Shown: positions 1 through 23,640 of the stretch, piece after piece
How the letters are laid out: each line of letters opens with the position of its first letter
How positions within the stretch are numbered: the stretch's first letter is position 1
DNA from: Dethiobacter alkaliphilus
GTDB lineage: Bacteria; Bacillota; Dethiobacteria; DTU022; UBA8154
Assembly: GCA_016841605.1 (NCBI GenBank)
Contig: JAENYV010000002.1
Coordinates: forward strand, 124,001 to 188,000
Length of the DNA stretch: 64,000 nucleotides
Reading direction: 5' to 3'
Notes under the pieces: generated by a model
Told to the model about the DNA's origin: nothing
The model's input: only the letters and a program-made list of their open reading frames with translations
Databases searched by the model: none
Translations under genes and position numbers: made by a program

Positions 1-1042
1 CCCCATCGTAAAGATTGATTAATCCTCCGCCTCCGCCTTCTGTAATACCGTAAATATTACCGGTTTTAAAGGGGAGAATTCTTTTCATATCCTCAAAAAG
101 TGCGAAAGGGACCGGCTGGGCACCGATAACAATACTTCCGGTAACATGTGAAAAATCGTAATTATTAATATCAATAACTCTTTTTTTAATTGCGTTCACA
201 GAATCGGACATAGTTGGAACAGTAACCCAGCCATTGTTGACTTTTTCTTCACAGATCGTATCCAGTAAATAATTCGGCTTATTTAGTTCCAACAGAATAA
301 TAATCTTTCCGCCGGCAAGGTAAGAGGGAAAAGATAAAAAGAAACTTCCGCTATGATAAAACGGATGCGGCGCCAGATATATGGTCTCTTGACCTTCGCA
401 GTAGGTCAGGGCATTGCCGATACCGATCTGGTAAAGAGTATCATGAGACTGGCAAACGGGTTTCGGAGGGCCTGTCGTTCCGGAGGTAAACATGAGTTCC
501 GCGGGAGCATCTTTCTCTACATCAATCAGAATATCCGCCGGATTACCTGTTTTGATAATATGATCATAAGAAGTCATTCCCTCGGGAACATTATCTCCGA
601 GACAGATATAAGAACAAATACTCTCCATTTCTTTTTTAATAGGTTCGACTTTTGGTAAAAAACCTTCACTTAAAATAAATGCCTTGGGATTGCAGGCATC
701 AGCAGCATACTTAATATCTGCAGAGGCAAAGCGAAAATTAAGGGGAACAGCTACCGCGCCGATTCTTAAAATGGCATGGAATGTTATTACCCATTCCAGG
801 CTGTTCATCTGCAGGTGCAGAACAAAATCATCTTTTTTTACTCCCATCTTCTCCTGCAGATAATTAGCCACCTTATTTGTCTCTTCATTGAACTTTTTCC
901 AGGTCAGCGCCCTTCTTATTTTTTCAGAAGGCTTTAATTCTACGAGAAATTCCTTATCAGGATACTTCTTGGCATTGATAATTCCAAACCGGGCAAAATT
1001 CACTCTTCTCTTAACCTCCTCAGTTGATAATACGGTTTTCAT
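1..1042 (-). CDS. Acyl/aryl-CoA ligase (AMP-forming), C-terminal part outside the window
   Basis: ANL-superfamily ligase, which activates a carboxylic acid with ATP and CoA through an acyl-adenylate. The frame is open from an ATG at 1042 to the window edge with no stop, about 347 codons, so the C-terminal lid domain is missing. It shows the ATP/AMP-binding P-loop (FTSGTTGPPKP, near residue 190) and the later YGITEGG adenylate-binding motif just before the edge. A GGGAG ribosome site lies 7 nt upstream of the ATG. It starts 19 nt after iorB, so it is almost certainly the third gene of the T-box-controlled iorAB operon. Substrate is inferred only: an arylacetate such as phenylacetate would fit the context, but a fatty-acyl ligase is also possible. 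Confidence 0.9.
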   Translation of the reverse strand, partial: MKTVLSTEEVKRRVNFARFGIINAKKYPDKEFLVELKPSEKIRRALTWKKFNEETNKVANYLQEKMGVKKDDFVLHLQMNSLEWVITFHAILRIGAVAVPLNFRFASADIKYAADACNPKAFILSEGFLPKVEPIKKEMESICSYICLGDNVPEGMTSYDHIIKTGNPADILIDVEKDAPAELMFTSGTTGPPKPVCQSHDTLYQIGIGNALTYCEGQETIYLAPHPFYHSGSFFLSFPSYLAGGKIIILLELNKPNYLLDTICEEKVNNGWVTVPTMSDSVNAIKKRVIDINNYDFSHVTGSIVIGAQPVPFALFEDMKRILPFKTGNIYGITEGGGGGLINLYDG

Positions 1043-1061
1043 CTCCAGGCTCCCGGGATCG

Positions 1062-1649
1062 TTACGATATAATTAAAGCCCGACCGGCCAGGAACGCTTT
1101 TTTATTCAGCTCTAAAAATTTTTCGGGCACCAGGCGCTGAATAACTTTCATCCAGACCTCCTCCGCACCGCCCAACAAATTGGAGACAGCACCCAACAAA
1201 ACGACTCCAACCATCGCGGGATTGCCGAGTTCTCCGGCTATCCCGGTCCCTTCAATCCAAATTACACGCCCCCCGGCACCTTTTAACAGGGATTCGATTT
1301 CTTGTTCGGAGGGATATTTTGCTTTGCCCAGATTTACTGCGGGTGGAGGAATCCGGTAGCGGTTTATCAACACTACGGTACCCTCTTTTAAATACAAAGG
1401 CCAACGAGCCGCTTCCAACATCTCAAAGCCTAAAAGGTAGTCGGCTTGTCCCTGTTCCACCAGCGGGGCATAGACTTTCTCGCCCCAGCGAACATGGCTT
1501 TCCACTGTACCTCCTCGCTGGGCCATACCGTGTACTTCGGATTTTTTTACGTCATATCCCAGTTCCAGACCTACTTCCGCCAATATGTTGCTGGCTAGAA
1601 TGGTACCCTGGCCACCCACTCCAGCCATTAAAATGTCAATTTTTTTCAC
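1062..1649 (-). CDS. iorB: Indolepyruvate:ferredoxin oxidoreductase, beta subunit
   Basis: Gamma-domain subunit of the 2-oxoacid:ferredoxin oxidoreductase family, partner of IorA. The complex interconverts aryl pyruvates and arylacetyl-CoA plus CO2 using ferredoxin. The N-terminus carries the typical MAGVGGQGT stretch, followed by the SEVHGMAQRGG motif of the family. I chose the GTG at 1649 because AAAGGAGG sits 8 nt upstream and the resulting 195 residues match the usual length; a longer open frame to 1811 would overlap the end of iorA and adds no family sequence. It follows iorA by 50 nt and precedes the CoA ligase by 19 nt. Confidence 0.93.
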   Translation of the reverse strand: MKKIDILMAGVGGQGTILASNILAEVGLELGYDVKKSEVHGMAQRGGTVESHVRWGEKVYAPLVEQGQADYLLGFEMLEAARWPLYLKEGTVVLINRYRIPPPAVNLGKAKYPSEQEIESLLKGAGGRVIWIEGTGIAGELGNPAMVGVVLLGAVSNLLGGAEEVWMKVIQRLVPEKFLELNKKAFLAGRALIIS

Positions 1650-1699
1650 CCTGCAGGCCTCCTTTGTTCTTTTATTTATTATTTCTAACTCCCGTGCAG

Positions 1700-3463
1700 T
1701 TACCGGGCAATGATCGCTTCGGCAGGGCATACCTGGACGCAAAGACCACAGCCGTTGCACAAGATGGGATCTATTGTTACATAGTCTTCTTCCTGCATAA
1801 GGGGCGAACAACCCAGCTCAAGACAGGTACCGCAGTTTACACAGAGTTCCGGGTCTATTTGGGGAGCCGTTCTTTTTTCTTTGGCGTAAAGAACGCAGGG
1901 GCGCCGGGCTATGATAACGGAGGGTTTGCCGCTTTCCAGGTGATCTTCCAGAGTTTTCGCCAGGCCGTCAAGATCATAAGGATCACAGATATCGACTTTT
2001 TCAAAACCGAGGCTGCGAACGAGCTGCTCCAGGTTTACAGCTTTCGTGGTTTTTTTCTGCAGGGTGATCCCGGTCCCGGGATGCTGCTGATGGCCCGTCA
2101 TGGCCGTGACACTGTTGTCGGCAATAACAACGGTTACGGTGCTTTCGTTATAGAGAACGTCAATCAGGGGATGGATACCGGAATGAAAGAAGGTGGAATC
2201 GCCCAAAACCGCGATGATGCGATCTTTGACCCCGGCTTTGCCAATGCCGTGGGCAACCCCTATGCCGGCACCCATACATCCGGTGGTATGCATGGCGCTG
2301 AGGGGAGGAGCATAGCCCAGGGTATAGCATCCGATATCACCGAGAACCAGGGCACCCGACTCGCGGAATACATGGAACATACCCCGATGTCCGCACCCCG
2401 GACAGAGGATAGGAGGGCGAATGGGGAGCTCTGCCGCCTCTGCGGCAGCCGCCGCGGCTTCCGCACGGGCCGCCGCAGGAGTTGAAATTAGACCTGCAGA
2501 GGCTGAGCGCTCACGTACAAGAGCCGGGCTGAATTCTCCAATGATGGGGAAAATATCTTTTCCTCTGGCTTCAATACCCATAAGCCTGATCTGTTCTTCT
2601 AGAAAAGGATCGAGCTCTTCGATAACAACCACCGTTTTTACCCTGGAAGCAAACTGCTGAAGAAGCTTTGCAGGCAGGGGATAAACCATCCCCAGTTTAA
2701 GAAAGGTAGCCCCCGGAAAGACTTCTCGCGCATACTGGTAGACGGAACCCGCGGCAATAATCCCTATTGTGTCGTCGCCGGGCTCGATCCGGTTGATGGG
2801 GGTGTTTTCCGCATATTCCGCAAGCTTCTTGATGCGCTCTTCTATGACAGGGTGGCGACGACGTGCATTGGCCGGAACCATAACGAATTTAACGGCGTCT
2901 CTTTCATAGAGCGGAGGTTCAGGCGGTGCGGCGGGGGGAGCCTCTTCAGAAATTTCCACAGAAGTCGATGAGTGCGAAAGGCGGGTTACGGTGCGCAGCA
3001 TGACCGGCGTATCAAAGGTTTCACTCATCTCCAGGGCAATTCCGACGAATTGTTTGGCTTCTTCGCTGTCCGCCGGCTCGAGCATCGGTAATTTGGCAAA
3101 TTTGGCGTAGTTGCGGTTGTCCTGTTCGTTCTGGGAACTGTGCATACCGGGATCATCTGCAGTAACCAGTACCAGGCCGCCTTTTAGCCCGGTATAAACC
3201 GCATAAAAGAGGGAATCCGCCGCCACATTTACACCCACATGTTTCATGGATACCAGGGCTCTGGTCCCGGCGTACGCGGCACCAATCCCTACATCCATGG
3301 CGACTTTCTCATTGGGCGCCCACTCGGCAAATACTCCCGGGTATCCGGAAAAATTATCCATAATTTCTGTGCTGGGCGTCCCCGGATAAGCCGCCCCGAC
3401 CCGTACCCCATTTAAGTAGGCACCATACGCTATTGCTTCGTTCCCCGTCATCAATTTCTTCAA
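1700..3463 (-). CDS. iorA: Indolepyruvate:ferredoxin oxidoreductase, alpha subunit
   Basis: TPP-dependent large subunit of IorAB, about 587 residues. The N-terminal pyrimidine-binding domain opens with MTGNEAIAYGA and contains AAYPGTPSTEI. A central Ala-rich linker leads to the TPP domain (CPGCGHRG and GDIGCYTLG, then GDSTFFHSG and ADNSVTAMTG). The C-terminus is a two-cluster ferredoxin domain (CVNCGTC and CNGCGLCVQVC). I favour the TTG at 3463, which has AAGGGG 7 nt upstream; an ATG at 3490 is in frame but would place that site inside the gene. Expression is under a T-box leader, which is unusual for an enzyme best known for aromatic amino-acid breakdown. Confidence 0.95.
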   Translation of the reverse strand: MKKLMTGNEAIAYGAYLNGVRVGAAYPGTPSTEIMDNFSGYPGVFAEWAPNEKVAMDVGIGAAYAGTRALVSMKHVGVNVAADSLFYAVYTGLKGGLVLVTADDPGMHSSQNEQDNRNYAKFAKLPMLEPADSEEAKQFVGIALEMSETFDTPVMLRTVTRLSHSSTSVEISEEAPPAAPPEPPLYERDAVKFVMVPANARRRHPVIEERIKKLAEYAENTPINRIEPGDDTIGIIAAGSVYQYAREVFPGATFLKLGMVYPLPAKLLQQFASRVKTVVVIEELDPFLEEQIRLMGIEARGKDIFPIIGEFSPALVRERSASAGLISTPAAARAEAAAAAAEAAELPIRPPILCPGCGHRGMFHVFRESGALVLGDIGCYTLGYAPPLSAMHTTGCMGAGIGVAHGIGKAGVKDRIIAVLGDSTFFHSGIHPLIDVLYNESTVTVVIADNSVTAMTGHQQHPGTGITLQKKTTKAVNLEQLVRSLGFEKVDICDPYDLDGLAKTLEDHLESGKPSVIIARRPCVLYAKEKRTAPQIDPELCVNCGTCLELGCSPLMQEEDYVTIDPILCNGCGLCVQVCPAEAIIAR

Positions 3464-3501
3464 TGTTATTCCCCTTTCCCAAATACTCATGTATGCTTAA
3501 C

Positions 3502-3544
3502 AAAAAAAATGTTTACTGCATTCATAGGGACGAAAGCAGTAAAC
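3502..3544 (-). terminator. Second intrinsic terminator in the iorA leader
   Basis: Nine-base-pair stem (GTTTACTGC at 3511-3519 pairing with GCAGTAAAC at 3536-3544), followed on the minus strand by a run of eight T at 3502-3509. It lies just downstream of the T-box terminator and about 40 nt before the iorA start, so a transcript that reads through the T-box must still pass it. Confidence 0.65.
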
Positions 3545-3562
3545 ACCCCGGCTTAAAAAGCC

Positions 3563-3885
3563 TGAAAAATAAAATCCGCCCCTCAAGGGGCGGATTATCT
3601 TCCGCGGTACCACCCTAGTTGACCGGCACCGGTCGGCGCCAAATCCTCTTTGGTTTTAAGGAATAAAGATCGCTAAAATATCTTCTTCCTTCTCAAGGAT
3701 AACGGGTGAGGGCCCGTCTACGATCTACTTGCCCCCTTCGGGGTTTCAACCGGAAGCTCCGGAGCGAACTTCGTCTGGTTCCTTCCGGAGGAGCTTACAG
3801 CCTCTGTCTCCCGCCTCTCTGTTGGAAGTACCCCCAGCTTACTTTTCTCCTTCAAAGCTTTTACAGGTATTTATTTGCAAAGACA
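3563..3885 (-). promoter_or_regulatory. T-box riboswitch, apparent phenylalanine (UUC) specifier, upstream of iorAB
   Basis: The minus strand carries the T-box core AGGGTGGTACCGCGG (3602-3616), then a terminator stem ATCCGCCCC/GGGGCGGAT (3573-3594) followed by a T-rich tract. Upstream are a Stem I region with the CAGAGAG-type motif, a GACGGG...CCCGTT hairpin fitting Stem III, and the segment GAAGUUCGCUCCGGAGC. That segment fits the pattern often seen around specifier codons (codon, then a purine, then CUCC-GAGC), which reads UUC (3766-3768) as specifier, i.e. tRNA-Phe. Known for the family: uncharged tRNA stabilises the antiterminator, so the genes are switched on by amino-acid starvation. 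The T-box call is strong; the specifier assignment is by eye. Confidence 0.93.
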
Positions 3886-3891
3886 TATCAT

Positions 3892-3920
3892 ATTTTATAA
3901 TATATTTAGCTCTTACGCAA
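3892..3920 (-). promoter_or_regulatory. Sigma-A-type promoter of the T-box/iorAB operon
   Basis: TTGCGT (3915-3920) and TAAAAT (3892-3897) separated by 17 nt on the minus strand, placed so that transcription would start just before the T-box Stem I. It overlaps the short gap after the amidohydrolase gene, so iorAB is probably a separate transcription unit. Confidence 0.6.
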
Positions 3921-23302: not shown

Positions 23303-23640
23303 GGCCAATCCCTCAGTCAACAGTCTAAAGTCCACGGTCAAAAGCAATTAGGAAAACCTTTTGACTTGTTTGATCCCGTCTTTTAACTTTTAGCTTTCAG
23401 CTTTCGAAATCAGGCCTGAAAATAAAATATGCCTTCCTGCCGCGGGCAAGAAGGCACATGCAATTTCCCTCTGTACCTTCCGTCCCGGTCCTCTTCGGCT
23501 CCAGGCAGAATCAATATAGAAAGTAAAAACCTGTCCAGGAGAATAAAACGCAGGTGCAGGACACAGTTCCCACCCCGCGCTTTATTCTATCATGTTTTTT
23601 CGGCCTTTGCAAGATATTCCATGGTTTTTTTTCAGCCTTT
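23303..23640 (-). other. Leader/intergenic region before the pantothenate operon
   Basis: 338 bp between the third M42 gene and the DUF2520 gene. The M42-proximal 180 nt contain several pairing segments on the minus strand (CTGTGTC with GGTACAG; CAGG with CCTG) ending in a strong terminator. It may be just the 3' end of the M42 operon, or a structured leader of the pan operon; pan-motif RNAs are known upstream of panB in Firmicutes, but I could not verify the motif. Confidence 0.35.
23430..23458 (-). terminator. Strong intrinsic terminator between the M42 and pan operons
   Basis: Eleven-base-pair stem GCCTTCTTGCC / GGCAGGAAGGC with a CGC loop, followed on the minus strand by ATATTTTATTTT. 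It ends the M42 operon or attenuates the pan operon. Confidence 0.75.

Follow-up and report, generated by a model that had tools for sequence, protein, structure and literature searches.

The window, i.e. the 64,000-nt stretch of DNA analyzed here (contig C8:124001-188000), belongs to a genome of 4.07 Mb in 36 contigs. Close to its start, a T-box leader RNA on the minus strand precedes the three genes iorA, iorB and ligF, in this order (Table 1). A cmscan of the window matched the entire T-box model RF00230 (model positions 1-219) with 102.7 bits and an E-value of 1.5e-21, compared to a gathering score of 93. The first-pass annotation had claimed a Phe T-box ahead of iorAB and a CoA ligase and had proposed comparing the leader with the T-box covariance model. 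This comparison confirmed the claim: the specifier reads UUC (Phe), and the T-box upstream of iorA-iorB-ligF is genuine. Minimum-energy folding of the leader alone did not clearly recover the T-box structure (z -2.0); the evidence is the match to the covariance model.

Table 1 Features of the T-box leader and the operon that follows it (window coordinates).
Feature	Position	Strand	Basis and remarks
T-box leader RNA (Phe): Stem I, Stem II/III region, antiterminator	3583..3864	-	cmscan RF00230; 14-member alignment A1
Specifier codon UUC (Phe), within GAAGUUCGCU	3766..3768	-	position set by RF00230 alignment; invariant in 14 homologous leaders
T-box core AGGGUGGUACCGCG	3603..3616	-	sequence
Bulge UGGU, complements ACCA 3′ end of tRNA-Phe	3612-3609	-	sequence
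Intrinsic terminator hairpin, alternative to antiterminator	3573..3596	-	10 pairs, 7 GC, T tail; fold z -2.8
iorA, indolepyruvate (arylpyruvate):ferredoxin oxidoreductase alpha	1700..3490	-	TIGR03336 680.5 bits; start may be TTG at 3463
iorB, second IOR subunit	1062..1649	-	NF005322 237.6 bits, PF01558; start set by homologues
ligF, AMP-forming acyl-CoA ligase, 5′ part	2..1042	-	PF00501, PF13193; gene runs on to contig C8:123423

The UUC specifier is directly followed by a purine on its 3′ side, as is usual in T-boxes. Family search and ARAGORN identified the tRNA-Phe of the genome, which has a GAA anticodon, discriminator A and the 3′ end ...GGCACCA; both the specifier and the UGGU bulge match it. 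The 5′ arm of the terminator hairpin is also part of the antiterminator, and a T tract comes after the hairpin. We infer that the operon is induced by uncharged tRNA-Phe, which would pair with the specifier and the bulge, stabilize the antiterminator and thereby allow transcription of iorA-iorB-ligF.

The genome contains 15 complete T-boxes, and a sixteenth entry is a partial match. Elsewhere in the genome, UUC specifiers precede pheS-pheT and a DAHP synthase-pheA pair (aroF-pheA). The other specifiers are UAC (the DAHP synthase-tyrA pair, aroF-tyrA), AUC (ileS), UGG (trpE, trpD and a trpB-like gene), CUC (leuA), CGC (argC) and GUC (ilvE); those outside ten printed alignments were read from the leader by eye. 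Because the specifiers of ten other T-boxes in the same genome fit their genes, the UUC reading is trustworthy. The ordinary Phe pathway (aroF-pheA) is thus present under its own UUC T-box, and salvage is not required for Phe prototrophy. A Tyr (UAC) T-box (L005) lies ahead of the TRAP transporter DctP-Q-M (L103:2275-5490), a candidate importer of tyrosine or a hydroxyaryl acid. A probable UUC T-box (L013, read by eye) ahead of a TrpX-like ABC transporter (L102:1862-4785) suggests that this transporter carries Phe rather than Trp.

IorA scores above the equivalog cut-off of the NCBIfam model TIGR03336 (650.9 bits) and contains a TPP motif and two Fe-S cysteine motifs. IorB is barely above the cut-off of NF005322 (237) and below that of TIGR03334 (168.7 versus 205.8); its ORF as listed begins about 162 nt too early, with the homologous part starting at about 1649. 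The complete LigF has 539 aa (L017:15042-13423, corresponding to contig C8 125042-123423). It contains the motifs TSGTTGPPK, YGITE, TGD, DRKKD and GKIDK, with A3, A5, A8 and A10 all present, and these adenylate-forming core motifs together with the catalytic lysine identify it as an AMP-forming acyl-CoA ligase. LigF is FadD-like and lacks the characteristics of the PaaK type (TIGR02155 above cut-off, about 430 aa, PF14535). None of the curated substrate-specific families matched LigF above cut-off. The solved structures closest to it are FadD13, FadD5, and 4-coumarate- and anthranilate-CoA ligases, and PDB searches with LigF, IorA and the symporter described below indicated no substrate.

The CoA ligase had been placed beside iorAB in the T-box operon, and this arrangement holds: ligF starts 20 nt past iorB, and a terminator follows ligF. 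This terminator lies 69-100 nt past the stop codon, just outside the window (L017:13354-13323; fold z -5.8); a simple terminator scan did not pick up the hairpin. Further downstream follow genes for a PaaK-like ligase, itself below the TIGR02155 cut-off, two BadF/BzdQ-like ATPases, a dienoyl-CoA hydratase-like protein and a 6-hydroxycyclohexene-carbonyl-CoA dehydrogenase. We considered the PaaK-like and benzoyl-CoA genes as members of the operon and rejected them because of the strong terminator after ligF and a gap of 268 nt; they are probably separate units. The operon contains no aminotransferase gene.

The genome carries a second copy of the leader on contig C24, in front of a gene that stands alone and encodes a 515-aa putative sodium:solute symporter; the two copies share 85% identity over 450 nt, promoter region included. 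The best NCBIfam matches of this protein are SSS models (E-value 1e-30), below the curated cut-offs. Searching 71 genomes of the order with a 441-nt query, we identified 14 complete leader homologues in ten genomes and one more that is cut by a contig end. All 14, and also the cut one, have the specifier region GAAGTTC. Six precede LigF without a visible iorAB nearby (G053, G054, G055, G056, G068 and G070, with the contigs of G056 and G070 ending inside LigF), three precede LigF and iorAB in two gene orders (LigF first in G055, iorAB first in G000 and G051), and five precede the putative sodium:solute symporter (G000, G051, G052, G056 and G045). The search for further T-box-iorAB arrangements, as the first-pass annotation had proposed, therefore yielded the same leader class ahead of the ligase, iorAB and the symporter, and ahead of nothing else among full-length homologues.

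Outside the specifier, the leaders vary, with a mean column identity of 71% in the 14-member alignment A1. In the structure that RNAalifold itself predicted from this alignment, which is not the Rfam structure, 22 pairs are kept through two-sided changes. The symporters of G000 and G056 are only 53% identical, and both retained the leader. With 14 homologous leaders, all UUC, and a restricted set of target genes, the association between T-box and genes goes beyond chance. In one genome that is 97% complete (G052; L139, L199 and L201), prephenate dehydratase (PF00800) was not found, yet the leader-symporter unit is present. This organism may need to import or salvage precursors of Phe, or the gene may fall into an assembly gap.

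The best explanation, to which we assign a probability of about 0.77, is that the Phe-specific T-box places an operon for arylacetate salvage under the control of Phe starvation, through uptake, CoA activation, reductive carboxylation and transamination. Upon Phe starvation, more uncharged tRNA-Phe would allow the genes for LigF, IorAB and the symporter to be transcribed together, with the second leader copy switching on the sodium:solute symporter simultaneously. The symporter would import phenylacetate, and LigF would convert it to phenylacetyl-CoA at the expense of ATP. IorAB would then carboxylate phenylacetyl-CoA reductively to phenylpyruvate, using reduced ferredoxin, and an unlinked aminotransferase would form phenylalanine. 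We infer here the ligase substrate, the direction and the transport; Phe or phenylpyruvate may be the substrate of the symporter instead.

The predicted induction on starvation and the AMP-forming type of the ligase argue for the synthetic direction. For Bacteroides, it was likewise argued that an AMP-forming ligase beside an IOR favors synthesis, and the co-located ligase was assayed there as an arylacetate-CoA ligase (PMC13285125). Phenylacetate has been described as a Phe source in rumen cultures (PMC7356843), and aryl acids as aromatic amino acid precursors in Methanococcus maripaludis, in work to which PMC4162585 refers. The anabolic interpretation of iorAB-LigF is supported at the level of sequence and strengthened by the 14 UUC leaders and by the separate branch of T-box ligases described below.

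The same genes might serve a more general aromatic salvage, with IOR and LigF accepting phenyl-, hydroxyphenyl- and indoleacetate and with Phe charging as a mere regulatory readout. Such breadth would agree with the activity of IORs on phenyl-, hydroxyphenyl- and indolepyruvate (PMC13285125) and with the listing of the Geobacter iorAB-paaK genes under tryptophan (PMC2700814). It is rather unlikely, however, given the UUC specifier in 14/14 leaders and the presence of the genome's Tyr and Trp T-boxes on other genes. We give least credence to a degradative operon (phenylpyruvate to phenylacetyl-CoA) whose T-box would be an accident of leader spread or would have another purpose, such as a phenylpyruvate drain. 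IorAB is catabolic in archaea and was proposed to be so in Desulfococcus (PMC5109826), and iorAB-LigF is surrounded by benzoyl-CoA-pathway genes. But induction by Phe starvation would then aggravate the starvation, the ligase is AMP-forming, neither ADP-forming nor kinase-coupled, and the leader was retained over the ligase, the symporter and two separate iorAB arrangements.

Relatives without the T-box have a conserved operon encoding an SDR, a thiolase, a DUF35 protein, an amidohydrolase, a D-2-hydroxyacid dehydrogenase, two 2-hydroxyacyl-CoA dehydratase subunits, IorA, IorB and LigF. It reads as a route from phenylacetate via phenylpyruvate, phenyllactate and cinnamoyl-CoA to benzoyl-CoA. 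Operons with the D-2-hydroxyacid dehydrogenase, 2-hydroxyacyl-CoA dehydratase, iorAB, ligase and thiolase/DUF35 genes occur at L134:3690-14668, L142:635-11988, L140, L143, L147 and others; the one at L134 additionally holds a 3-hydroxyacyl-CoA dehydrogenase and an enoyl-CoA hydratase. In the window, the flanking SDR, thiolase, DUF35 and amidohydrolase genes are kept, while the dehydrogenase and dehydratase genes are missing, their site being occupied by the T-box leader. In G055, a truncated dehydratase-subunit gene (residues 247-402, 89% identical to G056) lies between ligF and iorA. The window genome has two other iorAB copies (contig C13, 90% and 86% identical). Neither is preceded by a T-box, and both lie among genes for a 2-hydroxyacid dehydrogenase, a dehydratase, a further ligase, and proteins of beta-oxidation or a TRAP transporter.

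The phylogeny of LigF contains two supported branches, one of ligases from catabolic operons (100/99) and the other (98/94) comprising all nine T-box ligases and one G052 ligase located at a contig start. For IorA, a single clade of the T-box proteins was rejected (AU test, p=3e-9), and the T-box IorA of G055 is nearest to the catabolic IorA of G056 and G068. Together with the different gene orders, iorAB-ligF versus ligF-iorAB, this suggests that iorAB was recruited at least twice. Judged from these sequences, there was either such double recruitment or gene conversion, and iorAB under Phe control would recur on both accounts. The ligase would then be the old core of the regulon, into which iorAB was drawn at least twice from the degradation-type operon.

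These data also bear on the substrate of LigF. The ligase might act on another aryl acid (e.g. benzoate, phenylpropionate or cinnamate), with the symporter importing Phe and the membership of iorAB being secondary. That six leaders precede LigF without iorAB beside it, two of them at cut contig ends, counts against the arylacetate salvage reading and in favor of such a substrate, as does the lack of a match to a substrate-specific family or structure. We nevertheless regard this as quite improbable, because LigF paralogues adjoin iorB in degradation-type operons of at least fourteen loci and because iorAB was apparently brought under the T-box twice. Moreover, we know of no route to Phe from benzoyl-, phenylpropionyl- or cinnamoyl-type CoA esters.

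Within the preferred reading of Phe-controlled arylacetate salvage, we tentatively consider a further possibility. The operon may be the biosynthetic offshoot of an undescribed CO2-fixing degradation, in which phenylacetate is activated to phenylacetyl-CoA, carboxylated to phenylpyruvate and converted via phenyllactate and cinnamoyl-CoA to benzoyl-CoA; the middle genes would have been lost and the Phe T-box gained, at least twice. Part of a route of the phenylacetate-to-benzoyl-CoA type has been called unclear in a sulfate reducer (PMC5109826).

The leader resembles other T-boxes (RF00230) on aromatic amino acid genes of Bacillota in its canonical architecture, UUC specifier and terminator/antiterminator switch. 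Known Phe T-boxes were found in a survey on transporters, tRNA ligases and biosynthesis genes (PMC2494555), whereas the target here is a proposed reductive-carboxylation salvage operon with a presumed transporter; the text of that survey does not mention a ferredoxin oxidoreductase or a CoA ligase as a T-box target. The aryl-acid route of methanogens (Methanothermobacter, and the IOR of Methanococcus maripaludis) likewise uses IOR to form arylpyruvate from arylacetyl-CoA and CO2, but the system described here is bacterial, with a co-transcribed AMP-forming FadD-like ligase and predicted control by tRNA charging. In Bacteroides, an IOR gene also lies beside an AMP-forming ligase and a biosynthetic role was proposed, although no T-box was described (PMC13285125). 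Geobacter has iorAB with a phenylacetate-CoA-ligase gene and a conserved 5′ element upstream, assigned to amino acid (Trp) biosynthesis (PMC2700814). That element was not described as a T-box, and the ligase is of the PaaK type, in contrast to the FadD-like LigF. Searches of the open full-text literature yielded no report of a T-box ahead of iorAB or an aryl-CoA ligase. Methanogens are known to use the pathway and Bacteroides has been proposed to do so; its tRNA-controlled form appears to be new within the open literature searched. Beyond the first-pass annotation, our analysis adds the symporter, the two iorAB copies without a T-box, the aroF-pheA UUC T-box and the suggested derivation from a degradation-type operon.

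Thermodynamic arguments are usually invoked to decide if a bacterial IorAB serves degradation or synthesis. In the present case, the regulation itself points to the product, since a tRNA-Phe sensor stands over the ligase, the oxidoreductase and the transporter. In this family of uncultured anaerobic bacteria, the three leader-controlled components look like a dedicated phenylacetate-to-Phe route rebuilt from a degradation pathway. They provide an opportunity to test if Bacillota form an amino acid from a waste acid by reductive carboxylation. They also suggest a candidate function for an uncharacterized clade of ligases and for a putative SSS symporter, and illustrate how a degradation operon may be rebuilt for synthesis.

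Several other T-boxes looked relevant and were set aside. In six Desulfotomaculum/Thermincola-like loci, T-boxes lie 2-5 kb upstream of paaK-iorAB; we rejected them as support for Phe control because they carry a GCC (Ala) specifier and precede genes for an AsnC regulator and an aminotransferase. The Ala T-box, the AsnC-type regulator and the class I aminotransferase occur at L036, L037, L039, L044, L048 and L060, where paaK-iorAB or iorAB alone follows the aminotransferase on the same strand, and alanine control of iorAB is possible in these six Bacillota loci. The regulator-aminotransferase pair of the window genome (L001/L100) has a GCC T-box too, and no iorAB. A UUC T-box upstream of a catabolic-type operon (L031:1709-2459) was considered as a counter-example and dismissed, since the gene behind it is a separate one that stands alone, codes for a 128-aa protein without a Pfam family and is followed by a terminator-like hairpin of its own. 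Apart from T-boxes, the window contains a pan motif (RF01749), a leader RNA of pantothenate genes, at 23476-23576 on the minus strand (45.7 bits).
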